This document shows, piece after piece, positions 25,052 through 40,532 of a stretch of 64,000 nucleotides of DNA (positions are counted from its first letter, which is position 1; every line of letters begins with the position of its first letter). The notes under the pieces are model-generated. The model made no database searches. It was not told the origin of the DNA and worked only from the letters and a program-made list of their open reading frames with translations. The DNA lies in contig NZ_CP125942.1 in NCBI RefSeq assembly GCF_039602135.1, positions 1,302,001 to 1,366,000 of the forward strand, read 5' to 3'. The stretch is from Glutamicibacter sp. B1 (GTDB taxonomy: Bacteria; Actinomycetota; Actinomycetes; Actinomycetales; Micrococcaceae). The position numbers and the translations under genes were made by a program.

Positions 25052-26350
25052 TCAGTTCTGAATCATGATCGTTGGAATGACCGGTTCGCCACGCTGCAAC
25101 TTGCGAGCAACGCCAGGCAGTTCTTGGATCGATGCGCGATGACGTTCGGTGGCTTTCTGTACCCCGGAAGCACCGGTGTAGGACTGATCAATTTCGCCAT
25201 TGACCACCAGCGGCACCACGAGTTCGCGTTCTGGTCCACCGGTGGTGTGCTCGGTGGTGGAGACAACTTCCGCCACAGCGCGGTCACGGTCATTGAGCTG
25301 ACGTACCGCGTGCTTGCGACCGCCAATACTAGCCTTATTTGCGGCGGCTTTGGCCACGGGGATCCACTCGCCGGCATCATCTTGACGCGCAACAAGCTTG
25401 TAAACCATTGAAGCGGTGGGGTGCCCGGAACCGGTGACCAGGGCGGTGCCTACGCCGTAGGAATCAACCGGGGCGCTGGCCAAGGCAGCGATAGCGTATT
25501 CGTCCAAGTCCGAGGTGACGGTGATCTTCGTGTTCCAGTTGCCTAGATCATCAAGTAACTGGCGGACCCAACCGGCCTGTTGCACCAGATCACCAGAATC
25601 GAGGCGAACCCCGCCGAGTTCAGGACCGGCGACCTCAACGGCGGTGCGAACACCTTGTTCGACATCGTAGGTATCCACCAACAAGATCGTGTCCTTACCC
25701 AGCGAAGCTACCTGCGCTTCAAAGGCGGCGCGCTCCGAATCGTGCAGCAGGGTGAAGGAGTGGGCAGAGGTTCCCACGGTCTTTAGCCCGTAACGAGCAC
25801 CTGCCTCCAAATTTGAGGTCGAAGCGAAACCGGCAATCATCGCTGCGCGGGCTGCGGCAACGGCCGATTCTTCGTGGGTGCGTCGCGATCCCATTTCGAT
25901 GCAGGGGCGGTCACCGGCCGAGGCGATCATGCGCGAGGCGGCCGAGGTGATGGCCGAGTCGTGATTCATGACCGAAAGCAGGTAGGTTTCTACCACGCAG
26001 GCTTCGGCGAAGGTGGATTCGACGGTTAGCAGGGGAGAGTTAGGGAAATACAGCTCGCCCTCGGCGTAACCGGAGATGTTCCCGCTGAATCGGTAGTTTT
26101 CCAAGTACTTGATGGTCTGTGCGTTGACGACCTTGTTGTCTTTGAGGAAGCGCAGCTGCTCGTCGTCAAAGTGAAAATCAGCCAATCCTTCAAGCAAGCG
26201 TCCGGTGCCGCCAACAACTCCATAGCGACGTCCCTCAGGCAAGCGCCGTGCGAACGCTTCAAACACGGAAGGGCGGTGGGCCGCACCGGACTCGAGTGCC
26301 GCCTGAAGCATGGTCAACTCGTAGTGGTCGGTGAAGAGGCTGGTGCGCAT
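25052..26350 (-). CDS. pncB: Nicotinate phosphoribosyltransferase
   Basis: 432 residues; converts nicotinic acid and PRPP to nicotinate mononucleotide. Recognisable are the start LFTDHYELTMLQAAL, IEMGSRRTHEESAVAAARAAMIAGFASTSN, GTSAHSFTLL with the active-site His, and VTSDLDEYAIAAL with GVGTALVTGSGHPT for phosphate binding. ATG at 26348-26350 follows AGGAGCG. It forms an NAD salvage pair with pncA. The 144-base gap up to clpS serves divergent promoters. Confidence 0.93.
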   Translation of the reverse strand: MRTSLFTDHYELTMLQAALESGAAHRPSVFEAFARRLPEGRRYGVVGGTGRLLEGLADFHFDDEQLRFLKDNKVVNAQTIKYLENYRFSGNISGYAEGELYFPNSPLLTVESTFAEACVVETYLLSVMNHDSAITSAASRMIASAGDRPCIEMGSRRTHEESAVAAARAAMIAGFASTSNLEAGARYGLKTVGTSAHSFTLLHDSERAAFEAQVASLGKDTILLVDTYDVEQGVRTAVEVAGPELGGVRLDSGDLVQQAGWVRQLLDDLGNWNTKITVTSDLDEYAIAALASAPVDSYGVGTALVTGSGHPTASMVYKLVARQDDAGEWIPVAKAAANKASIGGRKHAVRQLNDRDRAVAEVVSTTEHTTGGPERELVVPLVVNGEIDQSYTGASGVQKATERHRASIQELPGVARKLQRGEPVIPTIMIQN

Positions 26351-26494
26351 GGGACGCTCCTGAAGATCGAAAAAGTATCAGCGGTGGTGCTGCCTGTACT
26401 AGCAGACCGGTTTTTACTGTATAACGGCTCACGCTGAAGATGATATTTACCGTGTCCTGCGTGGCGTTCAGAATCGACGCGTAAAATAGAAATT

Positions 26495-26779
26495 ATGACC
26501 GCAATGCCCGATGTACTTCCCGAAATCGAAACCGCCGCCACGTATGAAAAGCCATGGCGCTTGATTGTGTGGAATGACCCGGTGAACTTGATGAGCTACG
26601 TGGCCTACGTGTTCCGTTCCTACTTTGGATTCACGGCTGAAAAGGCTGAACAGCTCATGCTGCAGGTGCACCATGACGGATTCTGCAATGTGCGCAGCGG
26701 TAGCCGTGAAGCCATCGAATCAGATGTCCAAGCGATGCACGGATTCGGGCTCAACGCGACCATGACCCAGGAGGCCTAA
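26495..26779 (+). CDS. clpS: ATP-dependent Clp protease adaptor ClpS
   Basis: 94 residues. ClpS binds N-degron proteins and delivers them to ClpC/ClpA. The core WRLIVWNDPVNLMSYVAYVFRSYFGFTAEKAEQLMLQVHHDG carries the conserved Asn-Asp-x-x-N/Met residues of the binding pocket and the VHHDG loop. TAAAAT at 26482-26487 lies exactly 7 bases before the ATG, so the transcript is probably leaderless. A DUF2017 gene follows two bases after the stop, as is standard in actinobacteria. Confidence 0.93.
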   Translation: MTAMPDVLPEIETAATYEKPWRLIVWNDPVNLMSYVAYVFRSYFGFTAEKAEQLMLQVHHDGFCNVRSGSREAIESDVQAMHGFGLNATMTQEA

Positions 26780-26781
26780 GG

Positions 26782-27360
26782 GTGGCCAAGGCCTTCAAAT
26801 ACGGTGCCCACGGAATTACTGGCACCCTGCATTCTGCTGAGCGTAAGTTACTGCGCGAACTCTTTGGTGACGTGATCACCATGCTGGAAGAGCGTGCACT
26901 TGTACACCAGCTTCCTGACGATATCGACCCCTTGTACGCACTAACTGGAATGCGACCTGAGTCGATGGATCTGCCGGCGGTCACTGATCCGGCACTGTCT
27001 AAACTTCTACCTGATGCCAGCGATGACCCTGTTGTAGCAGCAGAACACCGCCGACTGACCGAAGCCGACTTGATTGCACAGAAGACTGGCCGATTGCGCG
27101 AGGCCCAGTTCCTGATGGAAACCGACAAGATTGTGCTGGAAAAAGAGAATGCACAACGCTTTGCGCAGGCGCTGAATGATGTCCGGCTCGTTTTGGCCGA
27201 ACGCCTTGAAATTCGAGACGAACAGGATGCTGAACGCGTCTCTGAAGTCTTGGACGCGGCGGAGGTTGAAACCCCTGAAGAGTATCTAGCGTTGGTTTAT
27301 AACTTGGTCTCCTGGGTGCAGGATACGTTGATGAGCGCCCTGATGGATGCGGAGTATTAA
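26782..27360 (+). CDS. DUF2017 protein
   Basis: 192 residues from GTG 26782 after AGGAGG. DUF2017 is an actinobacterial family almost always found between clpS and murI; function unknown. The N-terminal HSAERKLLRELFGDVITMLEER is a helical segment and SDDPVVAAEHRRLTEADLIAQK a charged middle block. The clpS pairing suggests a role in the same protein turnover pathway, but this is inference. It has no membrane segment. Confidence 0.85.
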   Translation: MAKAFKYGAHGITGTLHSAERKLLRELFGDVITMLEERALVHQLPDDIDPLYALTGMRPESMDLPAVTDPALSKLLPDASDDPVVAAEHRRLTEADLIAQKTGRLREAQFLMETDKIVLEKENAQRFAQALNDVRLVLAERLEIRDEQDAERVSEVLDAAEVETPEEYLALVYNLVSWVQDTLMSALMDAEY

Positions 27361-27363
27361 TCG

Positions 27364-28287
27364 ATGAATTCCTATTTTGCTACCGAGCAAGTTTCTGTTC
27401 CTGATGCCGATACGCCGATCGGCATCTTTGACTCGGGCGTTGGTGGACTGACCGTAGCTCGCGCAGTGATTGATCAGCTCCCGGGCGAATCACTGATCTA
27501 TGTTGGTGATACGGCAAACTCGCCTTACGGACCCTTGCCGATTGCTCAGGTGCGTGCCAACGCATTGGGCGTCATGGATGAGCTGGTGGATGCAGGCGTG
27601 AAATTACTGGTGATCGCCTGCAACTCTGCGTCGGCCGCGGTCTTGCGTGATGCTCGAGAACGCTACACCGCTAGATACGGAATTCCGGTGGTGGAAGTCA
27701 TTCAGCCTGCAGTACGCCGTGCAGTGGCTGGCTCCAAGAACGGCAAGATCGGCATCATCGGTACGCAAGCTACGGTCGGTTCGCGGGCCTACGAGGATGC
27801 CTTCGCTGCTGCCCCTGATCTTCAAGTGACTTCCGTGGCCTGCCCGCGTTTTGTGGAGTTCGTGGAATCAGGAATTACTGCCGGCCCAGAACTTCTGCAG
27901 ATCGCGCAGGAATATTTGGCGCCACTTCAAGAAGCTGGCGTGGACACCCTGATTTTGGGGTGCACCCACTACCCATTGTTGACCGGTGTTATTTCTTATG
28001 TCATGGGTGATGGTGTCACCTTGGTTTCCAGTGCCGAAGAAACTGCCAAGGATGTTTTCCGTGCATTAACGCGTCATTCATTGGTGCGCGAAGATGGTGT
28101 CGCGGCGCGTCATGAGTTCCTTGCCACAGGCAACGCTGATAGTTTTGGTGTACTGGCTCGCCGTTTCCTCGGACCCGAGGTTTTGCAGGTGCGCCACGTG
28201 GACCATGTGGCCGCCCACTACCCGACCGGTGCGATTGCGCGGATTACTCCGCAAATGATTGCCGCGTCGAAAGCGAGAAACGAATGA
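27364..28287 (+). CDS. murI: Glutamate racemase
   Basis: 307 residues; supplies D-glutamate for peptidoglycan. [17 protein letters not shown] gives the N-terminal acid/base region, [14 protein letters not shown] the first catalytic Cys and [11 protein letters not shown] the second, with PYGP between. The N-terminus is about 18 residues longer than in enterobacteria. It follows DUF2017 by three bases and overlaps the MBL-fold gene by four bases (ATGA). Confidence 0.95.
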
Positions 28288-29225
28288 AGCTGACCATCAT
28301 CGGATGCACCGGGTCGTTTCCTGGACCGGGATCTCCTGCGTCCTGTTACCTGGTGTCCGCCTTTGATGGCACGCGCGACTGGAAGATTCTCCTAGATTTA
28401 GGTTCCGGCGCGCTGGGCGTTCTGCAACGCTACACAGATCTTAAAGACATTGATGGGATCATGATTTCCCATCTACACCCGGATCACTGCATGGACCTTT
28501 GCGGTCTACATGTGGCGATTCGTTGGGATCCTAATGGCTGGGGTCGTGAACGCATGCTGGTGCACGGACCAGCAGCGACCGCCAACCGGATCGAAACTGC
28601 CTACTCCTTGCCCGATGGTGACACCATGGCCAAGGACTATGACTTCCAGGTGTGGACGCCGAATAAACCAGTAAAAATTGGGCCCTTCACCATCACGCCT
28701 TATCCGGTGCGTCACCCGATTGAGGAAGCCTACGCCTTGCGCGTGGAGGCCAGCGAACCGGGCCCGGATGGCGAAATGCTCACGAGTGTTTTGACGTACT
28801 CGGGGGACACCGACACCTGTGATGGCCTGGTCGAAGCAGCCAAAGGCGCGGATATGTTCCTCTGTGAGGCTGCCTTCGAAGAAGGCCGCGATGATCATAT
28901 CGACGGCGTTCACCTGACCGGTAAACGAGCTGGCGATATGGCTACTGCTGCCGGCGCTGAACGCATGCTACTCACACACATTCCGGTGTGGACCGATATC
29001 AATAAGGTTGTGGAAGAAGCTAAGGGAACTTACTCCGGCGGTATTGCTGTGGCAGTATCCGGCGTGACCTATGGCGTGTACTCGGGAAGCCTGAAAGAAG
29101 ATAAAGATCCTTCTCTCTTTAGAGGGGAGCGCGGTACCGATTATTTGAAGACGCGTACCGGCACCTTGCCCACCATTTCTTATGAAAAGACGCGTAAGTT
29201 CCCACTACTTAAACGTAAAAAATAA
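28284..29225 (+). CDS. MBL-fold metallohydrolase
   Basis: 313 residues of the beta-lactamase-like fold. [12 protein letters not shown] is the HxHxDH metal motif, VRHPIEEA holds a further ligand, and [10 protein letters not shown] and LLTHIPVW supply the remaining Asp and His. This gene order (murI, MBL, rph, rdgB) is conserved in actinobacteria, where such proteins resemble RNase Z or cyclic nucleotide phosphodiesterases. The length and C-terminal [12 protein letters not shown] tail are not those of a typical RNase Z, so substrate is left open. A terminator follows. Confidence 0.85.
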
Positions 29226-29239
29226 ATATCTAACGAAAG

Positions 29240-29288
29240 ATCAGCATCATCGAAACGGCCAGCTTCGTTGCGGTGGTGCTGATTTTTT
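29240..29288 (+). terminator. Terminator after the MBL-fold gene
   Basis: ATCAGCATCATCG (29240-29252) pairs with CGGTGGTGCTGAT (29271-29283), including two G-U pairs, and is followed by six T residues. The loop is 18 bases. It separates the clpS-murI-MBL unit from rph. Confidence 0.8.
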
Positions 29289-29392
29289 GTTGCACTCTTA
29301 GACAATGCTCTATATCGCCACGAGGTGTATTTCACCGTAACTCTCTGGCGAGCACGTGAAGATCATCGGGTACGCGTGGTTAGGATGGAATC

Positions 29393-30127
29393 ATGACTTT
29401 ACGCGCTGACGGCCGAGGAGCCGCGCAACTTCGAGACATCACCATCACCCGCGGCTGGTCCGCCCAGGCCGAGGGCTCTGCACTGATTGAATTCGGTAAC
29501 ACCCGAGTACTGTGCACCGCTTCGTTCACCGAGGGCGTGCCACGCTGGCTCAAGGGACAGGGCACCGGATGGGTCACCGCCGAATATGCCATGTTGCCAC
29601 GTGCCACTAACACCCGTAATTCCCGCGAATCGGTCAAGGGCAAACTCTCGGGACGTACCCACGAAATTTCGCGTCTGATCGGTCGTTCGCTACGTGCCGT
29701 TGTTGATACCAAGGCCTTGGGCGAAAACACCATCGTGTTGGACTGTGACGTGTTGCAGGCTGACGGTGGCACTCGTACCGCGGCCATCACCGGTGCCTAC
29801 GTGGCGCTGTCTGAAGCAATTACCTGGGCTCGCTCGCAGGGCATCGTGAAAGAGAACGCCAAGGTTCTCACCGACTCGGTGGCCGCGATCTCCGTGGGCA
29901 TCATCGACGGAACCCCAATGCTTGATTTGCCGTACGAAGAAGACGTCCGAGCAGAGACCGACATGAACGTTGTTGTCACCGGCTCCGGCGACTTTGTTGA
30001 GGTTCAGGGCACCGCCGAAGGTGTTCCTTTTAAGCGTGCCGAATTGGATGCTCTGCTTGATCTTGCTTTGGGCGGAACCAACGAACTGGCACAGATCCAG
30101 CGCGAAACGTTGAAGATCTCCAAATGA
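29393..30127 (+). CDS. rph: Ribonuclease PH
   Basis: 244 residues; phosphorolytic 3' trimming of tRNA precursors. [16 protein letters not shown] and [25 protein letters not shown] with [20 protein letters not shown] hold the phosphate-binding Arg and RNA contacts; [23 protein letters not shown] is the active-site core. TAGGAT at 29381-29386 lies six bases before the ATG; AGGATGG could also serve as a ribosome-binding site, so the leader length is ambiguous. It overlaps rdgB by four bases. Confidence 0.95.
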
Positions 30128-30759
30128 GCCAGCCAGTCCTTGTTCTCGCATCGCACAACCAGGGCAAACTGCGTGAGCTACGCGAATTGTTGCGTGGACA
30201 GGTCCCTGGGTTAGACGTTGACACTCAAGTCATTGACGCAGCCACCGCTGGGGCTACCGACCCAGTGGAAGACCAGGTCACCTTTGAAGGCAACGCGCTG
30301 AAAAAGGCCCGCGAAATTGCCGCGTCGACCGGGCTGATTGCGCTCGCCGATGATTCTGGTCTGAGCGTTGATGTTCTTGGTGGTGCTCCAGGAATCTTTT
30401 CCGCCCGCTGGTCTGGGGTCCACGGAAATGATGAAGCGAATATTGATCTATTGCTTGCGCAGTTGGGCGATATCGCTGTGGAGCACCGTGGTGCGCAGTT
30501 TGTCTGCGCCGCTGCCTTAGCGACTCCGGCCGGCGATGAATTCGTTGAACTGGGCAAGGTGGAAGGCCTGCTACGCACGGAACGCGCTGGTGATCATGGA
30601 TTTGGTTATGACCCAATCTTTGAACCTGTCGGGGCCGGAAAATCGATGGCAGAGCATACGCCACAGGAGAAGAACGCGATCTCTCATCGTGCTCGAGCCT
30701 TTGCTGCCTTGCTTCCCACCATTGTTGAGGCTGTCAGCAAAGCGATTAGCAACGGCTAA
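30124..30759 (+). CDS. rdgB: RdgB/HAM1 family XTP/dITP pyrophosphatase
   Basis: 211 residues; hydrolyses dITP, XTP and ITP to keep deaminated purines out of DNA and [19 protein letters not shown] is the N-terminal substrate loop, [26 protein letters not shown] holds the metal-binding Asp, and GFGYDPIF with [11 protein letters not shown] are the C-terminal motifs. It begins four bases before the rph stop, a conserved coupling. Confidence 0.94.
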
Positions 30760-30771
30760 TCTTTGGTAACG

Positions 30772-30817
30772 CAACGCCAGCCAGTGACTACTTTGCGGTA
30801 GTCGCTGGCTGGCGTTG
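30772..30817 (+). terminator. Long stem-loop between rdgB and the CotH gene
   Basis: A 20-bp stem, 30772-30791 with 30798-30817, has one G-U pair and a 6-base loop TTTGCG. It has no T-run on either side, so termination by the classical mechanism is uncertain, but its position between convergent genes fits a shared transcript barrier. Confidence 0.65.
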
Positions 30818-30850
30818 TGCATTAGGCCGGATGATTGATCCGGTCAGTTT

Positions 30851-32692
30851 TTAGGAACTGGAAGTGGCCGAGGCGCTTGGCGTAGCATCATCCTCTTCAG
30901 TTTTTGGTGCCGTGGAAGGCTGCTGCGTATTCGGCGTCGTGCCATCGGCTGATTCAGAAGTGAAGTGCGAGCGGATGGAATCTGCTTCGCTACTTACCGT
31001 GTCAGCATCAATGAGATCACTCGCTTCGTTATTCAACAGCGTGGTCCACTTAGTCAGGATTTCTTCGGCAGTGCCCGACTCGTAGAGCTTATTGGTCAGC
31101 TCGGTCTTGGCCGCTTCATACTGTGCCTTGAAGTTTTCGTCGGCGAGGAAGCGGGTCACCAATGCGTTGGATTTTCCGCCCATCGACCGGCCACCGTTTT
31201 GACCTCCGGCAGCCTTGTCGTCCGTGGTCTTAGTATCGCCATCGGTAGCTGTCTTGCCGTCCGAGGAATTGTCATCGGTTGACTTCTGGTCTGTGGAATT
31301 TTGATCAGTGGAGTTCTTGTCGGTGGAGTTCTGATCAGACGAGTTCTGATCTGGGGGAGTCATATTGCCTCCAGGAGCGCCACCCTGACCATTCATTTCA
31401 GGACGTTGCCCTCCACCGCCACCACCGAATGACAGGCCGTCTGGCATCTCTCCGTTAGCTAGATCCTTGAGAACATCGATCAGTTCGGTGCCATCCTCCA
31501 AAGTCATCTGATCGGGGAGCTCGACGCCATCTGGAACCGTACCCGCCTCAATCTGTTTCTTCGCATCCTCTAGTTCTAGACCGTCAGGGAGCATGCTGGT
31601 CAGCAGCGAATCGGTGTCCATCTTGCCTGGGCCACCGGCGTTGCCGCCACCCATGCCTCCGCCTTGACCGCCGCCCATGCCGCCGCCTTGGCCTCCTCCC
31701 ATACCGCCGAAGGAAAGGTTCTGATCCCAAGCGACAACTGTCATCGTTTTCGATTCGCTGTCATATCGGAGGAATGAATTGTTGCCTGGGCCGTCAATGT
31801 CATCAGTATTCGATACCAAATCTTGCATGGCCAAGTACGTAGCGAACTGATCCGTATCTAGATAGTCGGAGAGCTTGCTGGAGAAATCTTCATCGGAAGA
31901 GTTATTCACGAAGTCTAAGAAGGTAGCGATTGGGGTCAGATCATCGGTACCGGACTCAACATCGAAAGCAGATTCGTAGTCGCTGCCAGAATCACCGCGG
32001 TAGGAGTAGTCACCATCGGCATCGGCCTTGTAGGTAATTCCCTCACCTTCAAATGTTTCTTCGCTGTAGAGCTCATCAGAGGGGTTATCAATGACCAAGC
32101 GTAGTTCTGCATCTGAACCGTTCAAGGAGAACCGGGTTGCTGCAGCGTGTTCGGTGGCCAGTCCTGCTTCACCAAGCAGGTCCAGAGCGACCGCTTCATT
32201 CAGGGAAGACTCGCTCGTGTTGGTTCTCACGACGAATTCGGTTCTAGCGGAGTAGCTCTGGTTTTCCTCATATTTATCCAGACGCAGGATCCATGGGAGG
32301 GTCGCGGCGTCCGAGGATTCGTCGGTACCGCGAAGGGTGGAGTTACCCTTCAATTTCAAACCAACATTTTTGAAAGTGGTTCCGTCGATCGTGACTTCCG
32401 CGGAAATCCATTCCTTGGATCCGTCGGTGGAGTAGGCTTTCAAAGCTGCGGTGATGTCATCTGGATCAGCCGTGACACTGATTTCATGGACAGTGTCAGC
32501 ATTGAAGAAGGTGGAGGTTTCGCTACTGACTTCGGTGTTGATGATGCTGTGCGACGAAGCGTTGGCTGACGTGGTGCAGCCTGCTAGGGCCAAGGCACCG
32601 ATGGACAATGAGGCGACTGCCGTCATGACTCGTGGGGATCTAATACTAAAACGTCGAGGGGACTGCGCCCGATGGTTGGGTGAGTCAAACAT
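30851..32692 (-). CDS. CotH-kinase-family lipoprotein with Gly-rich insert
   Basis: 613 residues. The N-terminus has a hydrophobic signal with lipobox ALAGC at Cys39, so the protein is predicted to be a cell-surface lipoprotein. CotH fold landmarks: VGLKLKGNSTLR at 110-121 (nucleotide-loop region), DLVSNTDDIDGPGNNSF at 291-307 and VVAWDQNLSFGG at 319-330 (catalytic and metal Asp/Asn). A 30-residue Gly/Met/Gln run follows at 329-358. Residues 448-480 form DQNST-like repeats. B. subtilis CotH is a secretory protein kinase; that activity here is inferred. ATG 32692 follows AGGAG with five-base spacing. It is last in a three-gene operon. Confidence 0.85.
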   Translation of the reverse strand: MFDSPNHRAQSPRRFSIRSPRVMTAVASLSIGALALAGCTTSANASSHSIINTEVSSETSTFFNADTVHEISVTADPDDITAALKAYSTDGSKEWISAEVTIDGTTFKNVGLKLKGNSTLRGTDESSDAATLPWILRLDKYEENQSYSARTEFVVRTNTSESSLNEAVALDLLGEAGLATEHAAATRFSLNGSDAELRLVIDNPSDELYSEETFEGEGITYKADADGDYSYRGDSGSDYESAFDVESGTDDLTPIATFLDFVNNSSDEDFSSKLSDYLDTDQFATYLAMQDLVSNTDDIDGPGNNSFLRYDSESKTMTVVAWDQNLSFGGMGGGQGGGMGGGQGGGMGGGNAGGPGKMDTDSLLTSMLPDGLELEDAKKQIEAGTVPDGVELPDQMTLEDGTELIDVLKDLANGEMPDGLSFGGGGGGQRPEMNGQGGAPGGNMTPPDQNSSDQNSTDKNSTDQNSTDQKSTDDNSSDGKTATDGDTKTTDDKAAGGQNGGRSMGGKSNALVTRFLADENFKAQYEAAKTELTNKLYESGTAEEILTKWTTLLNNEASDLIDADTVSSEADSIRSHFTSESADGTTPNTQQPSTAPKTEEDDATPSASATSSS

Positions 32693-32699
32693 GATGCTC

Positions 32700-33473
32700 C
32701 TAGGGGTGCAGGGACACTGCAGTGGATATTTTGTGTTTGGTTGTCTTGTGCCAGCGATTGGCTGGGAGATTCTGATTCAGCAGGCTCATCCCGGTAGCAA
32801 ATTTGGAAATTCTCGATGGCCGAATCTGATGCCGCCACAGCAATTTGTCGGCAGGTCCGGCGTTCAGCGCCGACTTTGTTTCCACGATGATTTCATTGCA
32901 TTCAAGCCGGAACCCAGTGCGTGGTTCGGTCCACACGAGGTTGTTATCTACCGTGACTCGACTGTTGGTCTCCGGGAGAAACAGCGTGGTTCGGCTGTAG
33001 GAAGAATCAATGACAGGGGTGAGGCTGGTTGGAACGATCGGGCAAGAACCCAGCTCGTGATCGAGGGTTTCCTGGATGTACTCCAGTGACTGTTCACTGA
33101 GCGCTGCGCGGTCCGCAAAGGGATGTTCAATGCGTTCTTTGACAGTCTGTTCGCGGGCGCCTTCGGTTTTGACTTCGAGATAGCACTGCTGGGTATCCAT
33201 ATAGCTTCTGGTGCGCACCTTAAAACGACGACGACGCGGATGAGCTGCTAGATGGAAACTGGCCAGGTCCGGGGTATCAAAGTAGACCGAAGTGTAATCC
33301 GAAGCTCGGCGCCCATCGATGGATAGCACCAGTGCTTGCTGGGCTAATAGCGGGAGCACCTGCTCAGCCTGCTGTTGGGTGAGAATGTATTTGCGGTCGG
33401 TACGGGTTTGAAGAGCTGCTGCCTCGTTGAGTTCTTCGAGGCTAATAGTCTGTAGCTGGTCGCTGAAATTCAT
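32700..33473 (-). CDS. VTC-domain protein (polyphosphate-polymerase-like)
   Basis: 257 residues. The VTC fold is the catalytic domain of yeast Vtc4, which makes polyphosphate from ATP inside a basic tunnel. Matching features here are TRTDRKYIL (R27, K28), YTSVYFDTPDL, RRRRFKVRTRSY (residues 80-91), CYLEVKTE (E100, K102), KERIE (112-116), RTTLF (R161), IVETK (E198, K200) and SKF near 224. No membrane segment is present. It overlaps the DUF4956 gene by four bases and ends seven bases before the CotH start. Bacterial members are mostly uncharacterised, so polymerase activity is inferred. Confidence 0.82.
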   Translation of the reverse strand: MNFSDQLQTISLEELNEAAALQTRTDRKYILTQQQAEQVLPLLAQQALVLSIDGRRASDYTSVYFDTPDLASFHLAAHPRRRRFKVRTRSYMDTQQCYLEVKTEGAREQTVKERIEHPFADRAALSEQSLEYIQETLDHELGSCPIVPTSLTPVIDSSYSRTTLFLPETNSRVTVDNNLVWTEPRTGFRLECNEIIVETKSALNAGPADKLLWRHQIRPSRISKFATGMSLLNQNLPANRWHKTTKHKISTAVSLHP

Positions 33474-34087
33474 CGGGTCTGTCCGGTAATCACTTCGTGG
33501 TTCTCTACGGTGCGTGAAGTATCTGGCTCAATCATCTTTAGACTGGGCCGCGAGTAACGGACCTTCACGATGGTCTTGTCGTTGATTAGATCCAGCTGTT
33601 GAACTACTGCCTGGTGGATGGTTGCCCCACCAAAGAGCATGCTCAGGTGTGCGTTAAGCTCATCATCATCGGCGATGGCCCGGTCCAAAACCACTTCTTG
33701 ATGGCGGTAGGTAGGCAAGACCTTTGAGTGGTCTGCTACCAGCATGGCCACCAAGATCAGTGCGACCAAGGTGATTGGCAACCAGACCGGGGTCGGGCCC
33801 ATGCCGGCGATCAGGCCGATGGCCAGGGCTGAGAAGTAGTAAGCAATTTCGTGCTGTTCAAGCTCGGTGGAGCGCAGACGGATGATGGACAGAACGCCGA
33901 ACAGTCCCATTCCGAGTCCTGCGCTGACGGTGCTTCCGGCTAGAGCCGTCGCGACAGCGAATACACCGATGTTGATTCCGATATACGACACTGCCAAATC
34001 TCGGCGGCGGTGGCGACGTAGGTATAGGCCAAAGGTGAGGATCAGGATGGCAGCGATATCGACAGCTGCGAAAAGCAAGACGTTCAT
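33470..34087 (-). CDS. DUF4956 membrane protein
   Basis: 205 residues with four to five hydrophobic helices between residues 3 and 120 (AAVDIAAILILTFGLYL, GINIGVFAVATALAG, GLGMGLFGVLSIIRLRSTELEQHEIAYYFSALAIGLIAG, VWLPITLVALILVAMLVAD) and a cytoplasmic C-terminal domain of about 85 residues. The SIIRLRSTELEQHEIAYYF block is characteristic of DUF4956. ATG at 34087 follows AAGGA. It is the first gene of the operon with VTC and CotH; the trio recurs in many bacteria. It may anchor or feed the VTC enzyme at the membrane, a hypothesis only. Confidence 0.82.
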   Translation of the reverse strand: MNVLLFAAVDIAAILILTFGLYLRRHRRRDLAVSYIGINIGVFAVATALAGSTVSAGLGMGLFGVLSIIRLRSTELEQHEIAYYFSALAIGLIAGMGPTPVWLPITLVALILVAMLVADHSKVLPTYRHQEVVLDRAIADDDELNAHLSMLFGGATIHQAVVQQLDLINDKTIVKVRYSRPSLKMIEPDTSRTVENHEVITGQTR

Positions 34088-34323
34088 AAATTTCCTTGTA
34101 GTTCTTCGGAAAGGGGGTTGTTAAAAGTCTTGAATTACTTGCTGTGGGATTCGTAGGACATCTTCATGAGGAAGCTAAGGGGCAGGTCAGATCACACTCT
34201 CGGGAAGGGATTCCTGAGAATTTCGTAGTGGAATGTCACGCGGAATTCTGCGGTTTTTAACCTAATTTTTTGCTTCTGTATGCGTTCTTTATGCGAATCC
34301 TAAGAAAGTGAGTCCGGTAGCTC

Positions 34324-34352
34324 TTGCGCTTCTCTGCTAGTGGTTCTATGGT
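34324..34352 (+). promoter_or_regulatory. Promoter of the GntR-ABC operon
   Basis: TTGCGC (34324-34329) and TATGGT (34347-34352) are separated by exactly 17 bases. The start of transcription should fall at about 34359, giving a 57-base leader with GAAGGGAG before the ATG. The -10 box overlaps the left arm of the operator by two bases. Confidence 0.65.
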
Positions 34353-34384
34353 TAGTTACATGACTAACTAACTCACTAACTAAC
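34351..34384 (+). promoter_or_regulatory. Operator-like repeats before the GntR gene
   Basis: GTTAGTTA (34351-34358) and TAACTAAC (34365-34372) form an inverted repeat with a 6-base spacer. The right arm is part of ACTAACTAAC (34363-34372), repeated directly at 34375-34384. YtrA-type GntR repressors usually bind inverted repeats in their own promoters. Position over the predicted transcription start argues for autorepression. Confidence 0.75.
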
Positions 34385-34415
34385 CTGGTGGGAACGAACA
34401 CTGAAGGGAGCCAGC

Positions 34416-34775
34416 ATGATCGATGACTCAAAGCCCATATTCATTCAGATTGCTGAGCTGATTGAGAACGACATTGTCTCTGGTGTTCTTGCCGAAGAAG
34501 CCCAAGTCCCATCAACCAATGAGTTCGCAGCCTTCTATCGGATCAATCCAGCCACAGCGGCAAAAGGGATCAATCGGCTCGTCGAAGATGGGCTGCTCTA
34601 TAAAAAACGGGGGATCGGAATGTTCGTCACCGAAGGTGCGCCACAACGGTTACGAGAACAGCGCCGTGAAAAATTTCAGCAGCAATTTATTACGCCACTC
34701 ACCGCCGAAGCTTCAAAACTAGGCATCGGCATCAACGAATTGGTGGCCATGATCAAAACCAGTTCGGATACCTAA
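34416..34775 (+). CDS. GntR family regulator, YtrA subfamily
   Basis: 119 residues: an N-terminal winged helix (PIFIQIAELIENDIVSGVLAEEAQVPSTNEFAAFYRINPATAAKGINRLVEDGLLYKKRGIGMFV) and only about 45 further residues. The lack of a large ligand domain is typical of YtrA regulators, which control adjacent ABC transporters and often respond to cell-envelope stress or antibiotics. ATG follows GAAGGGAG. It is the first gene of a unit with an ATPase and permease 30 bases downstream. Confidence 0.9.
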   Translation: MIDDSKPIFIQIAELIENDIVSGVLAEEAQVPSTNEFAAFYRINPATAAKGINRLVEDGLLYKKRGIGMFVTEGAPQRLREQRREKFQQQFITPLTAEASKLGIGINELVAMIKTSSDT

Positions 34776-34805
34776 AACTTCGTCGCAAGGCAGGGAAGGT
34801 ACGTC

Positions 34806-35720
34806 ATGACTCAAGCAACAGCAATCGCCATCCGCGATCTGACCAAAACCTACAAAGACCTCAAAGCACTCGATAACATCAACCTGGATCTGGAACCCAA
34901 CCGGATCTACGGACTGCTCGGACGCAACGGTGCCGGCAAGACAACGCTGATGTCCATCTTGACCGGTCAAAACTTCCAAGACCACGGAACTGTGCAGGTC
35001 TTTGGACACGAACCCTTCGAGAACGATGCAACTCTTGCGCGGATCTGTTTCATCAGGGAATCCCAAAAATACCCCGATGACTTCAAAGTCCATCAAGCAT
35101 TTGCTGCAGCTTCCCTGTTTTTTGAGAACTGGGATCAGCACCTGGCCCAAGAGCTGATGAAAGAATTTGATCTGCCGGCCAAGCGCAAAATTAAGAAACT
35201 CTCCCGCGGTCAACTCTCCGCGGTAGGAGTGATCATCGGCCTGGCCTCACGAGCTGAAATCACCTTCTTCGACGAACCATATTTGGGCCTAGACGCAGTA
35301 GCACGGCAAATCTTCTACGATCGTTTGGTCGCGGACTTCGCTGAGCATCCACGCACGATCGTGCTCTCCAGCCACCTCATTGATGAGGTCGCCAACCTGC
35401 TTGAACACGTAATCGTGATCGACAAGGGCCAGATAGTGATTGACGCCGAGGCCGAAGAACTCCGCGGAGCAGCAGTAACCGTCACAGGAGATGCCGCCAA
35501 AGTTCAAGAATTTGTCGGTACGGCGAAGGTTCTGCATCAAGATGGACTCGGTGCTCTGGCCAGCGTCACCATCGAATCCCAGCTTGATGCGGGGCGCCGC
35601 GAGCAAGCCAAGCTTATGGGACTCGATCTCAGCCCGGTGTCACTACAACAGTTCGTAGTTCGTAGCTCGTTGAGTTCAGCGAGCGAAAGAGTCGATGAAA
35701 AGTCGGAGGCTTGGTCATGA
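34806..35720 (+). CDS. ABC transporter ATP-binding protein
   Basis: 304 residues. Walker A GRNGAGKTT, the Q-loop is replaced by a region with IRESQKYPDDFK, the signature KLSRGQLSAVG (LSRGQ), Walker B ITFFDEPYLGLD and the switch His in IVLSSHLIDEV are all visible. The C-terminal 80 residues form an accessory domain. It is probably controlled by the upstream GntR. The stop overlaps the permease start by four bases (ATGA). Substrate unknown; homologous units are often linked to lantibiotic or cell-wall stress. Confidence 0.9.
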   Translation: MTQATAIAIRDLTKTYKDLKALDNINLDLEPNRIYGLLGRNGAGKTTLMSILTGQNFQDHGTVQVFGHEPFENDATLARICFIRESQKYPDDFKVHQAFAAASLFFENWDQHLAQELMKEFDLPAKRKIKKLSRGQLSAVGVIIGLASRAEITFFDEPYLGLDAVARQIFYDRLVADFAEHPRTIVLSSHLIDEVANLLEHVIVIDKGQIVIDAEAEELRGAAVTVTGDAAKVQEFVGTAKVLHQDGLGALASVTIESQLDAGRREQAKLMGLDLSPVSLQQFVVRSSLSSASERVDEKSEAWS

Positions 35721-36412
35721 ACCGCATCATCAAAGTTGCTCGAATGCAACTGATCAACAAGGCCACTTTCATTGGCATTCCGTTGATCATCTTGTTCAGC
35801 TCATTCCTTTTTACCGTGGTGATCTGGTGGCTGGTCCGCCGAAACGATGCTGAAGGTATCCTTTACGGCGGCGGGGCTCAAGCCCCGATGTGGTACTTTC
35901 TTGCCCTAGGCATTCAAGCCTTGACCCTCACTTTCCCCTTCTCCCTAGGGATGAGCATTTCGCGTCGGAGTTTTTATCTGGGGACATTGGCCTTGTTCGC
36001 AACCTGCGCCCTCGTACTCTCGGTCTTCTACTACCTCATGGGATTGTTGGAGACGGCTACCGGGGGTTGGTGGTTAGACGGACGCTTCTTCGCTCTGCAA
36101 TGGATTTCCGAAAATAATTGGTTCATTCAGATCATGTTCTACTTCGTACTCATGGTCCTGTTGTTCATGATCGGCTTCCTCATTGCCACGATCTACATGC
36201 GCTGGCGGCAGATGGGTATGGTCTTCTTCTTCACCTCGCTGGGCGTAGTAGTCATAGGTGCTATCGCCCTAATCACTTTCACTGATACCTGGATGCAGTT
36301 TTGGGAATGGGTGATGACATGGAGTGCCGGAGGAGTGACGCTCTGGGGAGGCCTAGTCGCCGTTCTGATGGCAGGATGCTCATATCTCACGCTACGTAAG
36401 GCAACTGCGTAG
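35717..36412 (+). CDS. ABC transporter membrane protein partner
   Basis: 231 residues with about six hydrophobic helices and short loops. ATG 35717 is favoured over TTG 35711, because CGGAGG at 35704-35709 then has 7-base spacing and the start overlaps the ATPase stop. Sequence conservation in this group is low, so the call rests on topology and on coupling to the ATPase. It ends the GntR-ABC unit; the 181-base gap after it carries GAACCG/CGGTTC and CCCGT/ACGGG stems without a T-run. Confidence 0.8.
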   Translation: MNRIIKVARMQLINKATFIGIPLIILFSSFLFTVVIWWLVRRNDAEGILYGGGAQAPMWYFLALGIQALTLTFPFSLGMSISRRSFYLGTLALFATCALVLSVFYYLMGLLETATGGWWLDGRFFALQWISENNWFIQIMFYFVLMVLLFMIGFLIATIYMRWRQMGMVFFFTSLGVVVIGAIALITFTDTWMQFWEWVMTWSAGGVTLWGGLVAVLMAGCSYLTLRKATA

Positions 36413-36593
36413 TCACATAGTTGACGAACCGGTACACGGTTCCCGTTCAAAAATGACGGGAAGCGTGCACCATTTCGTTTTGTTCGCTGGCACCCTTGGG
36501 CCAAGAACGATCCTTGCTATTCTCGGTAAGTACCAGGGTGAAAGTTGGCTTTCAAACCAAAAAGTCATAGCCCGTATCCCTAGGAGGACGTGC

Positions 36594-37094
36594 ATGAGCA
36601 CCCGAGCAACCGGAACCCGCACAAGTGACGGCGCACTGGAACTCCGACGAAAATTTACCCAGTCTCCGAGTGAATTATGGTCCTACCTCGTCAATTCCGA
36701 GCGTCTGGCGTTGTGGTTCGGTACCTACAGCGGTGACCCGGATAGCGGCGCGGTGGATGTTGTGTTGCTGGCTGAAGAAGGCGCACCCAGCGAACAGGTG
36801 GAAATTCTAGAATGCGATCCTCGGGCCTGGGTACTGAAAGTACGTACAGGTGAAGGAGCGGAGAGCTGGCAACTAGAACTACAGATTCACGCTGAGGGGA
36901 CAGGCAGTGAACTCATATTCCAAATGCCTGGATTGGATCCGTCCATGGCAGGCTCGGTAGGACCGGGATGGGAGTACTACCTTGACCGTCTGACTGCTGC
37001 AGTCAGTGGAGGCGATGTCGGAACCATCGATTTTGAGAAGGATTATTATCCTGCGCTGAGCGAATACTACGAGCAACTGTTTCAAGCGAAGTGA
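36594..37094 (+). CDS. SRPBCC/AHSA1-type domain protein
   Basis: 166 residues from ATG 36594, which follows TAGGAGGA at ideal spacing; the frame is open 141 bases upstream without a start signal. The N-terminal ALELRRKFTQSPSELWSYLVNSERLALWFGTYSG is the helix-grip start typical of AHSA1 proteins (stress-related, START-like ligand pocket). SELIFQMPGLDPSMAGSVGPGWEYYLDRL is the second typical block, like the GW...YL ending. Ligand unknown. Confidence 0.82.
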   Translation: MSTRATGTRTSDGALELRRKFTQSPSELWSYLVNSERLALWFGTYSGDPDSGAVDVVLLAEEGAPSEQVEILECDPRAWVLKVRTGEGAESWQLELQIHAEGTGSELIFQMPGLDPSMAGSVGPGWEYYLDRLTAAVSGGDVGTIDFEKDYYPALSEYYEQLFQAK

Positions 37095-37303
37095 CATTTC
37101 GGACCTGATGCACAGTGATGTCTGACTTCAAACTACGACATGCCCAGCGGTTAGTGCGTTCGTTCCCTACGGTCCAAATGCTGATTAGCTACAAGTCAAC
37201 TGCGCTTCTATGGCTTCATGCTGCGAGCCAAACCGCCGTTGAGTACTCCGGGAGTAGAGCCTGTGATGCCAGAGTCAGGGTTTAAGCGAGTAAGCTATTG
37301 GGC

Positions 37304-38305
37304 GTGGCATTGGACTTCACAGCAGTAGATTTTGAGACAGCGAACGGTTTTATCGGCTCCGCCTGTTCGGTGGGCCTGGTCAAAGTACGTTCCGGAAAAA
37401 TAGTTGAAACCGAACAGTGGCTGATGAAGCCACCAGAAGGTTTTGACCACTTTGATCCGCGCAATGTCTCAATCCACCACATCACCCCGGATATGGTCAT
37501 TGACTCGCCACGCGTCACCCAGAAACTCCCCGAACTTCTCGATTTCATTGGACCTGATGTGTTGGTGGCACATAATTCGGCTTTTGACTCGGGAGTCATT
37601 CGGGCAGCCTCGGAGGCCAGCGAGATCCCCGTGCCGGAAATTGCGCACCTATGTACTGTGAAGCTTTCCCGTAAAGCCTATGACCTGCCCAGCTATTCAT
37701 TGCCATTTGTAGCTGAAGAAGCGGGCCACCCCATCGAGAATCACCACGAGGCGCTCGCCGACTCCACCGCTTGTGCCTGGGCCATGATCGACATGGCAGG
37801 ACGCAGTGGTGTTCAGTCAGTTCTTGAAGCCGCGGATCACTACGGTGTGCGTCTGGGGCTCACCTCAGCGTGGCAACCGGGCGATGAATACTCACGAGCT
37901 ACCCGCGACGCCCAAGGATGGTTGGCTTCCGGGCACCCATTGCCACCACAGGACGCATTTAACAACTGGCCTCAAGAAGGGCCAAACCCGAGCCCTAATC
38001 CAGAAGCTGATCCCGGTCACCCTCTCTACGGGCAGATCATGGTCTTCACTGGCAATTTGGCCTTGCCCCGTCCACAGGCCAAGGAACTCGCTGCCGAACA
38101 CGGTGCGCAAACGGCCTCACGAGTTACGCGGGCAACGACCGCACTGGTCGTGGGAGATGGCTTCGTCCCGCAAGACTTGGCTAATGGTCGTTTGACCAAC
38201 AAAGCCAAGCACGTGTTGCGCCTGCGCGAAAAAGGTCAGAAAGTCACCATCATTTCTGAAGGGGAATTCATGCAGATGGTCGGCGGGTTTGGGCTGATCG
38301 CCTAA
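37304..38305 (+). CDS. DnaQ-like 3'-5' exonuclease with C-terminal BRCT domain
   Basis: 333 residues from GTG 37304. The DEDDh exonuclease motifs are clear: Exo I AVDFETAN, Exo II LVAHNSAFDSGV and Exo III HHEALADSTACAW. The C-terminal 90 residues (GQIMVFTGNLALPRPQAKELAAEHGAQTASRVTRATTALVVGD) are a BRCT domain as in DNA ligase. This pairing is known in actinobacterial DNA polymerase III epsilon-like proteins. TAAGCT (37291-37296) lies exactly 7 bases before the GTG, which decides it over TTG 37298 and implies a leaderless message. The 209-base gap before it has no gene. Confidence 0.87.
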   Translation: MALDFTAVDFETANGFIGSACSVGLVKVRSGKIVETEQWLMKPPEGFDHFDPRNVSIHHITPDMVIDSPRVTQKLPELLDFIGPDVLVAHNSAFDSGVIRAASEASEIPVPEIAHLCTVKLSRKAYDLPSYSLPFVAEEAGHPIENHHEALADSTACAWAMIDMAGRSGVQSVLEAADHYGVRLGLTSAWQPGDEYSRATRDAQGWLASGHPLPPQDAFNNWPQEGPNPSPNPEADPGHPLYGQIMVFTGNLALPRPQAKELAAEHGAQTASRVTRATTALVVGDGFVPQDLANGRLTNKAKHVLRLREKGQKVTIISEGEFMQMVGGFGLIA

Positions 38306-38326
38306 AGCACAGCAACTTAAGAAGAT

Positions 38327-38354
38327 GAAAGCCGGCTCCTAGAAGCCGGCTTTC
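38327..38354. terminator. Bidirectional terminator between exonuclease and convergent gene
   Basis: GAAAGCCGGCT (38327-38337) pairs perfectly with AGCCGGCTTTC (38344-38354) across a 6-base loop. The built-in AAA/TTT gives short T-tracts on both strands between two convergent genes. Confidence 0.75.
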
Positions 38355-38375
38355 CTCGTCTGGTAGTAATTCTGG

Positions 38376-39314
38376 CTAAACTAGCAGAGCCATCCAACGA
38401 TCGTGCAATTCGGAAATGATGTCATCGAGGGCGCTGGCTGGGCGTTCTCCCACCGCTTCAGTTCCATACACGGCAGCCAACAGCGCTACAGCATAGGCAT
38501 CAACTTCAGGATCCCGGTCTTCCGGATTTGACACGACTGATTCAGGAGCAGCCTCAACATCTGACTCCTCCGACGACTCTTCTGCATGGTCACCAAAGTA
38601 CGCGTTGTAGGCATCTTCTGGTGCGAGCGAGATGTTATCGCGAATCTTGGAAACCACCGCACGCAGAGCCGAAGCCGAAGGGCCTTCCAGATCCACCAGG
38701 AATTCATCCCATTGCGTGGCGGACTCTTCGGAGCGTTCCATCGCGGAGCGAATGATTTTTGCTGCAGCCACCGCAGTTTTAGCTGCCTGAGCGTCGTGGG
38801 TTAGGAATGCGGCCGCACGAGCCAGGGTTTCCGTGGTACCTAGCGGTACACGGGCCAAGAGCGCGGTGATGGCTGCACGCGGCAGGACACCAGTTGAGTC
38901 AGCATCGGCACCCGTCGGGCGTCCTGGCTGTCCCATATCAGCGCTGTTCAGTCCCGAGATGTTCTGTGGATCGCCATCAGCGATTTTCTCGAAGACCTCA
39001 ACGTTAGAGAATTCTTTATCGATCCAGCGGCCCAGGGGCTCTGGCGCACCGGCAGGGAAGCTGCCGGTAAGTTTCTTGTAGCTACGTAGCGCAGCAAGCC
39101 ACATGCAGGCTGCTTCGTCACTTGCGACACCATCACGAGCCCACTCCAACGCTTCTAGCAGGCCGTCGGCCAGGTAAAGCGGGAGGATTTCGGTGGCGCC
39201 GGGGTCGATGTCGTCGCGGGCGTGGGTTGCGCCGTCGGCTAGGCCGAGGAGGATCGCAAACACTTTGTCTGAGTAGTTCTCTGGCAGGAGTGCAGATTCA
39301 CCGGATTCATTCAC
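38376..39314 (-). CDS. Acidic helical protein divergent from sbcD, unrecognised
   Basis: 312 residues, strongly acidic and mostly helical by composition, without signal peptide or membrane helix. The N-terminal half (LLPENYSDKVFAILLGLADGATHARDDIDPGATEILPLYLADGLLEALEWARDG) and the middle (ALLARVPLGTTETLARAAAFLTHDAQAAKTAVAAAKIIRSAMERSEE) look like structured helix bundles. Residues about 240-270 form an acidic linker (DHAEESSEESDVEAAPESVV). GGAG precedes the ATG by six bases. It resembles the DUF4192-like or YbjN-like proteins only weakly, so I give no name. Confidence 0.65.
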   Translation of the reverse strand: MNESGESALLPENYSDKVFAILLGLADGATHARDDIDPGATEILPLYLADGLLEALEWARDGVASDEAACMWLAALRSYKKLTGSFPAGAPEPLGRWIDKEFSNVEVFEKIADGDPQNISGLNSADMGQPGRPTGADADSTGVLPRAAITALLARVPLGTTETLARAAAFLTHDAQAAKTAVAAAKIIRSAMERSEESATQWDEFLVDLEGPSASALRAVVSKIRDNISLAPEDAYNAYFGDHAEESSEESDVEAAPESVVSNPEDRDPEVDAYAVALLAAVYGTEAVGERPASALDDIISELHDRWMALLV

Positions 39315-39365
39315 AGCTCCATTCTAATGTCCAAGTTGTCCCAGACATTGCATATGGTTGGAAAT

Positions 39366-40532
39366 ATGCGATTGCTACATACCTCAGATTGGCATTTGGG
39401 CCGGACCTTCCATGGTGCGTCCCTGATTGACGCGCAACGTAGTGTGCTTCAAGAAATCATCGATGTTACTGTCAATCAACACGTTGACGTGGTGCTGATC
39501 TCCGGCGATATCTACGACCGGGCCCTGCCTCACGTTGATGCGGTGCAATTGTGCAATTGGGCGCTTCGTGAACTGCGGGCCACGGGCGCCACTGTTGTCA
39601 TCACCAGTGGCAACCATGATTCAGCTTCACGCTTGGGTTTTGGTGCGGATCTATTAGATAGCGCAGGGGTACACATCATCGCTGACCTTGAGCGCATGGT
39701 GAATCCGATAATCTGCGAAGCTGAAGACCACCAAGTGGTGATCTATGGCATTCCCTACTTGGAACCGCGCATGGTGATGGAACAGCTGGGAGCTGGTAAG
39801 GCCAGCCATGAAGCAGTAGTTCAGGCGGCTATCGGTAAAATTGATGAGCATCTGAGTGCGCTGAATACTTCCCACAAGCCAGTGGTCTCGATTGCCATGG
39901 CGCACCTGTTCGCTGCAGGTGGTTTTTCTAGCGATTCCGAACGTGAACTGAGTACCGGAAATCTTGACGTTGTTCCTGTGGAGCTTTTTGAACGCTTTGA
40001 TTACGCCGCACTGGGCCATTTGCACGGCCGTCAAAAAGTTCGGGAACATGTGCGCTATTCCGGATCACCCCTGGCCTATTCCTTCTCCGAAGTGAAACAA
40101 ACCAAGGGACTATGGCTCATCGACACGAACGCTGAAGGCATCAAAAGTGTCCAAGAAATCTTACTGACAGTTCCAAAGAAATTAGCCGTTCTCAAAGGGC
40201 AACTTTCGGACCTGCTGAATGATCCTGAGCTTGAGTACGCTACCGAAGCATGGTGCCAAATCACGCTTACCGATGCGCAACGTCCCGCCGATGCCATGAA
40301 CGCTCTGCGTACCCGATTCCCTGACACAGTGGTGCTGAACTTTGCTCCCGAGGGCGGGACGAGCACCGAACAACCGGCGACCTACGCAGAACGAATGGCC
40401 AAGGCAACAAGCACCCAAGACGTGGTGGGTGACTTCGTGGAGCATGTGCGTGAACGTGCTGCCGATGAAGCCGAATGCGAAGTCATAACTGCTGTTATTC
40501 GTGCTACAAGAGAGGCACAGGTCAGCCAGTGA
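39366..40532 (+). CDS. sbcD: Exonuclease subunit SbcD (Mre11-like)
   Basis: 388 residues; the Mn-dependent nuclease partner of SbcC, which cuts hairpins and protein-blocked DNA ends. Phosphodiesterase motifs are MRLLHTSDWHLGRTFHG, VLISGDIYDRA, VVITSGNHDSASR, IAMAHLFAAGG and LGHLHGRQ. The frame opens earlier at 39327, but MRLLHTSDWHLG is the family start. TATGGT (39353-39358) lies 7 bases before this ATG, which suggests a leaderless mRNA. It overlaps sbcC by four bases (GTGA). Confidence 0.95.
   Translation: MRLLHTSDWHLGRTFHGASLIDAQRSVLQEIIDVTVNQHVDVVLISGDIYDRALPHVDAVQLCNWALRELRATGATVVITSGNHDSASRLGFGADLLDSAGVHIIADLERMVNPIICEAEDHQVVIYGIPYLEPRMVMEQLGAGKASHEAVVQAAIGKIDEHLSALNTSHKPVVSIAMAHLFAAGGFSSDSERELSTGNLDVVPVELFERFDYAALGHLHGRQKVREHVRYSGSPLAYSFSEVKQTKGLWLIDTNAEGIKSVQEILLTVPKKLAVLKGQLSDLLNDPELEYATEAWCQITLTDAQRPADAMNALRTRFPDTVVLNFAPEGGTSTEQPATYAERMAKATSTQDVVGDFVEHVRERAADEAECEVITAVIRATREAQVSQ

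Follow-up and report, generated by a model that had tools for sequence, protein, structure and literature searches.

The DUF4956 and VTC protein families form a nearly obligate gene pair, accompanied by an exchangeable third gene, in the bacterial genomes that we analyzed. The starting point was a stretch of 64,000 nucleotides (nt) of Glutamicibacter sp. B1 (contig NZ_CP125942.1, positions 1,302,001 to 1,366,000; hereafter the window), in which a minus-strand operon encodes a DUF4956 membrane protein, a VTC protein of the polyphosphate-polymerase type and a CotH-type lipoprotein. Since DUF4956 and VTC are nearly always found together, bacteria may own a polyphosphate machine that sits in the membrane and serves the surface of the cell. 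We tentatively propose, as a reading that is quite possible if a little short of probable, that DUF4956 and VTC make up such a machine, in which polyphosphate is made from adenosine triphosphate (ATP) and an exchangeable partner acts outside. The evidence for it is the near-obligate pairing, the fold and residues of the VTC protein, the lipobox of the CotH protein, the exchange of partners and the polysaccharide genes near some loci.

The distribution of the three families was determined by searches in 18 genomes of the genus, 119 genomes of the phylum and 14 control genomes; the genome of the window (G000) is a single contig of 3.6 Mb. Within the genus, VTC and DUF4956 occurred in the same 17 of 18 genomes, and a DUF4956 match lay no more than 277 nt from each of the 25 VTC copies (at the second locus of G000, where DUF4956 is split, the nearer piece was counted). 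CotH was present in nine of the 18 genomes, each time 411-426 nt from a VTC match. The genus has two loci, a pair not beside CotH (16 of 18 genomes) and the trio (9 genomes), and G000 holds both. At the level of the phylum, VTC was found in 13 of 119 genomes and DUF4956 in the same 13, with a DUF4956 match no farther than 278 nt away for 15/15 VTC copies. CotH occurred in 11 genomes, all of them among the 13 that bear the pair; in ten of them the pair was at most 1.4 kb away, and in G125 CotH lay on another contig (5.8 kb). The association, which the initial annotation had described as recurrent, is beyond chance, with Fisher P values of 1.3e-17 for the joint occurrence of VTC and DUF4956 and 7.4e-14 for that of CotH and the pair, both optimistic because the genomes are related. 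In the controls, VTC and DUF4956 gave matches in the same three genomes. CotH gave matches in two of the three, one being Corynebacterium glutamicum, and also in Bacillus subtilis, which has no VTC match.

In the second DUF4956-VTC pair of G000 (L001:692-1204; L173:8245-8777 = G000:C1:226244-226776), DUF4956 is broken into two frames within its C-terminal domain. Sister genomes carry intact copies, and a sequencing error is possible; a response regulator and a histidine kinase follow this pair. In another genome (G116:C1:191830-193102), stop codons fall within both the VTC (TAG) and the DUF4956 (TGA) matches, which may mean a decayed pair or assembly errors.

The neighborhood was further examined by a DUF4956-centred scan of near relatives, limited to the top 80 of at least 578 confirmed stretches, all titled Actinomycetota except one contig labelled Sporosarcina. 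DUF4956 of the closest named locus, from Arthrobacter sp. NIO-1057, is 98 percent identical to that of the window; the next closest are Arthrobacter sp. S41 and three records of Glutamicibacter. VTC lay just downstream of DUF4956 in 78 of the 80 loci, the two without it being L102, where CotH is present, and L120, where DUF4956 is near the contig end. Together with the co-occurrence in genus and phylum, this excluded chance clustering of the genes. According to our own profiles, the third gene was of the Cthe_2159 type in 68 loci and CotH in 13, with both present in five and neither in four.

The Cthe_2159-type open reading frames (ORFs), one of the 68 being dropped as one of two L079 pieces, lack a kinase domain, and 66 of 67 match Pfam Cthe_2159. 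A lipobox-like motif was found within the first 220 residues of 51/67, with LAGC in the consensus. In 65 of 68 loci their start lies on the downstream side of the pair, either overlapping it or at most 300 nt away. Cthe_2159 is annotated as carbohydrate-binding and binds acidic sugars. The two pair-bearing phylum genomes devoid of CotH (G044, G083) have Cthe_2159 beside the pair, and CotH or Cthe_2159 was present somewhere in the genome in 13/13 pair-bearing genomes. Conversely, five of the six Cthe_2159 genomes of the phylum sample have VTC, the exception being G029. A Cthe_2159 gene also lies in G000 (C1:1647518-1648378), far from both VTC genes of that genome. Other neighbors in the 80 loci, where ORFs were called by length without a gene finder and each cluster rests on one Pfam-scanned representative, were a GT2-GtrA cluster (29) and a phosphodiester-glycosidase (NAGPA) cluster (18). 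The contig labelled Sporosarcina (L083) carries an Arthrobacter-like DUF4956-VTC-Cthe_2159-CotH cluster, by transfer or contamination.

Plasmids gave 19 matches (lists of 16 and 3, with one record common), and the pair was present in all seven regions read, two of which are unannotated and were assigned by our own profiles. The alphaproteobacterial plasmids of Shinella and Aminobacter carry DUF4956, VTC and a phytase-like protein (PF13449) with a signal-like N-terminus (L153:5397-7723, L154:5457-7709), whereas VTC-DUF4956 lies near an acid phosphatase in Deinococcus, and CotH-VTC-DUF4956 amid glycosyltransferases in Pseudobutyrivibrio. The unannotated plasmids showed DUF4956-VTC in Streptomyces and VTC-DUF4956-CotH in Nonomuraea. 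The Planococcus plasmid has the order VTC-DUF4956-CotH-unknown (~700 aa)-HEAT-GT2 glycosyltransferase (chitin-synthase-like), found both there (L156:5389-12824, Bacillota) and in an actinobacterium (L163:2108-9972, Actinomycetota), possibly a polysaccharide synthase system. The core is DUF4956 plus VTC with an exchangeable, apparently secreted partner, and polysaccharide genes lie near some loci and not among the 13 flanking ORFs scanned in this window. Three unannotated human-faecal records labelled 'Bacteriophage sp.' (H20-H22) encode VTC proteins as well; their phage origin is doubtful.

The VTC protein has a tunnel fold like that of yeast Vtc4, with basic residues, in agreement with the polyphosphate tunnel of the initial annotation. 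It aligned by profile to Vtc4 (3g3q) with an E value of 2.6e-23, and its best structural match was Vtc4. The Vtc4 residues K200, R264, R266, K281, K294, R361, R373, E426 and K458, a set which we take to be catalytic, correspond to K28, R87, R89, K102, K112, R161, R172, E198 and K224 of the window protein, and are kept in 118-120 of 120 VTC sequences (17 of 137 matches were dropped as duplicates or for having fewer than 150 aligned residues). The position of Vtc4 K455 is occupied by R221, also basic, and by R or K in 63/120 sequences. With regard to the residues originally listed, the 80-91 stretch (K85, R87, R89, Y91), E100/K102 and E198/K200 stood; R27 is not conserved, and the conserved pair is R24/K28 rather than R27/K28. 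A VTC protein with lost active-site residues was ruled out by this near-invariance. The VTC domain was the only Pfam match in the 257-aa protein, with no match to SPX or to a fused membrane domain, which leaves unaffected the claim that it would work like Vtc4. By analogy, the window protein would carry out ATP-dependent polymer synthesis. It would not be the only polyphosphate enzyme of the genus, a candidate ruled out by PPK1, the usual bacterial polyphosphate maker (available text of PMC10657179), which accompanies VTC-DUF4956 in the genus and was found in 18/18 genomes.

The N-terminus of the CotH protein is a hydrophobic stretch closed by the lipobox LAGC (Cys39), which places the protein outside. 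Its domain aligned to the spore-coat kinase CotH (PDB 5jd9) with both active-site aspartates present, in agreement with the initial description of a lipoprotein with CotH kinase motifs. It differs from that kinase by the lipobox, by a 180-residue insertion and by its host, Glutamicibacter being a genus that is not known to form spores. The insertion (31172-31711), Gly/Met- and Ser/Thr/Asp-rich, follows the second aspartate and is a possible phosphorylation target. In the available passages of PMC7821199, the D228Q and D251A mutants of B. subtilis CotH are inactive, and Ser-rich repeats are phosphorylated by this CotH. Among 46 related CotH ORF pieces, many of them cut or starting at a stop codon, 35 have a hydrophobic N-terminal stretch and 23 a lipobox-like motif; a narrower rule (43 pieces) gave 15 and 9, respectively.

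The DUF4956 protein has five predicted helices (residues 2-119) followed by a small beta-alpha-beta-beta domain (128-179). Following the positive-inside rule, the C-terminal domain and an Arg-rich loop (24-30) would be cytoplasmic. The AlphaFold model is of low confidence (pLDDT 63, pTM 0.43), and Foldseek and VIA searches with it gave only weak matches, to the C-terminal part (ACT-type, with E above 0.1, and other small alpha-beta domains) and to single helices, with no MgtC structure among the matches listed. Profile comparison by hhalign gave a match to MgtC (probability 68.9, P 4.5e-5, score 39.1) over 123 co-linear columns that span helices 3-5 and the C-terminal domain and share the motif G-x-G-x-x-G...R. 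This result is favored by the choice of the 17 MgtC loci out of 20 that form the profile, made by the motif itself, which belongs to the match. Controls with reversed MgtC, VTC and GT2-GtrA stayed below 1 percent, and column shuffling gave best scores of 17.4 (40 global shuffles) and 33.3 with probability 37 (40 local shuffles), compared with 39.1 for the real profiles. Poorer sets, contaminated with wrong-strand frames, had yielded a probability of 1.2 in an earlier run. Within the DUF4956 motif, R70 is present in 118/120 and R72 in 120/120 sequences with a letter at that position (121 distinct sequences; 17 of 138 matches were set aside), and R70 is replaced by Thr in both alphaproteobacterial sequences. 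The likeness of DUF4956 to MgtC/SapB (PF02308) would cover the co-linear helices, the C-terminal domain and the motif; a Pfam scan of the window protein gave no PF02308 match, and the profile probability is only 69 percent. DUF4956 may be a distant MgtC relative, which we offer as a tentative lead. MgtC is tied to phosphate balance. No report joining MgtC with DUF4956 was found in the open-access literature searched; the kinship, if true, would link two fields, that of MgtC and phosphate balance and that of VTC-DUF4956.

In the proposed machine, a cytoplasmic VTC protein would use ATP gamma-phosphate to build a phosphate chain within its basic tunnel, in the manner of yeast Vtc4, and DUF4956 would anchor VTC and probably pass or present the chain at the membrane, like the membrane part of the yeast VTC complex. 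The third protein, CotH here and a Cthe_2159 or phytase-like protein elsewhere, would act outside the cell, either on this product or on some polymer of the surface. We infer the ATP substrate, the polyphosphate product, its transport across the membrane, the direction of its movement and its use by the third protein. The yeast complex (Vtc1-Vtc3-Vtc4; Vtc4 PDB 3g3r, 8i6v) has in common with the bacterial locus the tunnel fold, nearly the whole catalytic residue set and a companion membrane protein, whereas the bacterial locus lacks SPX and fused membrane helices, has a five-helix DUF4956 partner and a lipoprotein as third gene, and encodes one VTC protein.

An alternative, unlikely on balance but deserving attention, is that VTC is a tunnel enzyme for hydrolysis or sensing of short polyphosphates or nucleotides, and that VTC-DUF4956 regulates surface polysaccharide synthesis, with no polymer made. 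Triphosphatases and cyclases share the VTC fold, a synthase-type glycosyltransferase adjoins the unit in two phyla and pel genes adjoin it in print (available text of PMC7112168), and the weak matches of the small C-terminal DUF4956 domain include regulatory domains of the ACT type. However, the tunnel residues are those of Vtc4, the best structural match; the 13 flanking window ORFs scanned include no polysaccharide or pel-like gene; and none of the 13 pair-bearing genomes, G000 among them, had a PelG match at E 0.001. PelG was over the cut-off in 2 of 119 phylum genomes. A purely Pel-linked accessory set was rejected on the absence of PelG matches from the 13 genomes.

The initial annotation had suggested that an energy-rich phosphate polymer or nucleotide, made at the membrane, serves to phosphorylate a surface target. 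In this version, CotH would be an extracytoplasmic kinase, at work where there is no ATP, that takes its phosphate from the exported polymer and modifies a protein of the surface or the Ser/Thr-rich insertion of CotH itself. The lipobox, the two aspartates, an insertion rich in Ser/Thr and Asp, the phosphorylation of Ser-rich repeats by B. subtilis CotH, and the fact that CotH was never found without the pair in the 119 genomes all speak for it. On the other hand, B. subtilis has CotH and no VTC match, and many pairs have no adjacent CotH. We know of no CotH that uses polyphosphate. A pathway built for phosphorylation through CotH is not supported, in view of the non-kinase Cthe_2159-type gene of 68 loci, the CotH-free pair of most genus genomes and the phytase-like partner of the two alphaproteobacterial loci; we consider this donor role improbable, since many pairs have a non-kinase partner. 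Bolder, and somewhat harder to credit, is a second bacterial polyphosphate system besides PPK1, in which VTC and an MgtC-related protein would thread chains across the membrane to exchangeable surface proteins and, with CotH, allow ATP-free phosphorylation of surface proteins or glycans outside. That polyphosphate is a structural polyanion at the surface, bound by Cthe_2159 or CotH in a matrix built or cross-linked with metal ions and glycan, is very unlikely: it would accommodate the carbohydrate-binding annotation of Cthe_2159, its exchange with CotH and the nearby polysaccharide genes, but it leaves the conserved CotH catalytic residues unexplained and takes surface polyphosphate as an assumption.

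This gene set is already in print, with pel operons and, partly, in Clostridium perfringens. Gram-positive pel operons have cotH-PPP-DUF4956(-DUF4832) accessory genes, the same three families in a cluster, for which regulation of Pel by phosphorylation has been proposed (available text of PMC7112168); the window differs in the absence of pel genes among the flanking ORFs scanned and of PelG matches in the pair-bearing genomes. NELoc-2 of Clostridium perfringens, in the available text of PMC2879425, has VTC, a ~225-aa membrane protein and CotH in a row like the window, the membrane protein, there named tubulin/FtsZ, being probably DUF4956. Unlike in the window, the row goes on with genes for a hypothetical protein, a HEAT-repeat protein and a glycosyltransferase, the arrangement also seen at L156 and L163. 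The available text of PMC8250860 has a CotH protein and does not contain the terms VTC or DUF4956. The open-access literature searched (listings and passages) offered no function for the DUF4956-VTC-CotH set, in line with the initial annotation, and nothing on bacterial VTC with polyphosphate or on the gene neighborhood of bacterial CotH kinases. Within that literature, the new points are how strictly DUF4956 and VTC are paired, the replacement of CotH by Cthe_2159 or phytase-like proteins, the residue census, the presence of the genes without Pel and alongside PPK1, and the lead to MgtC. The nearly obligate pairing of VTC with DUF4956 across several phyla, together with the residues of Vtc4 and an apparently secreted partner, makes VTC-made export polyphosphate in bacteria directly testable, and likewise the phosphate source of extracytoplasmic CotH kinases.

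The coordinates of the operon and its features are collected in Table 1. The three ORFs lie at the minus-strand positions initially given, with an overlap of 4 bases between DUF4956 and VTC (33470-33473) and a gap of 7 bases between VTC and CotH (32693-32699), and all three Pfam matches are above the cut-off. Spacing and ribosome sites agree, so the genes fit one operon, and translational coupling from VTC to CotH is likely.

Table 1. Features of the DUF4956-VTC-CotH operon (positions in the window).
Feature	Position	Strand	Basis
DUF4956 membrane protein, 205 aa	33470..34087	-	PF16316 5.4e-58
VTC (polyphosphate-polymerase type) protein, 257 aa	32700..33473	-	PF09359 4.5e-28
CotH-type lipoprotein, 613 aa, lipobox Cys39	30851..32692	-	PF08757 2.2e-30; PDB 5jd9 E 0.0014
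Shine-Dalgarno AAGGAA of DUF4956 gene (first operon gene)	34092..34097	-	sequence
Ribosome-binding site AGGAG of CotH gene, overlapping VTC stop codon	32697..32701	-	sequence
DUF4956 motif G57-S73, GLGMGLFGVLSIIRLRS	33869..33919	-	aligns with MgtC motif
VTC tunnel motif K85-x-R87-x-R89-x-Y91 (R87, R89 = Vtc4 R264, R266)	33201..33221	-	invariant in 120/120 VTC sequences
CotH D300 to D323 (= D228, D251 of B. subtilis CotH, same spacing of 23)	31724..31795	-	alignment to 5jd9
CotH low-complexity insertion, residues 328-507, after second Asp (45 Gly, 22 Asp, 27 Ser/Thr of 180)	31172..31711	-	composition

No Rfam element was found at gathering score in window positions 26000-40000, a simple promoter scan gave no promoter, and the terminator count was near the shuffled level (5 vs. 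a mean of 3.7). Ten more flanking ORFs are housekeeping or miscellaneous genes (e.g., NAPRTase, Asp/Glu racemase, RNase PH, Ham1, SbcD-like). Divergent from the operon are a GntR regulator and an ABC transporter (34416-36412), and the repeat ACTAACTAACTCACTAACTAACC at 34363-34385, between the two divergent operons, is a possible GntR operator.

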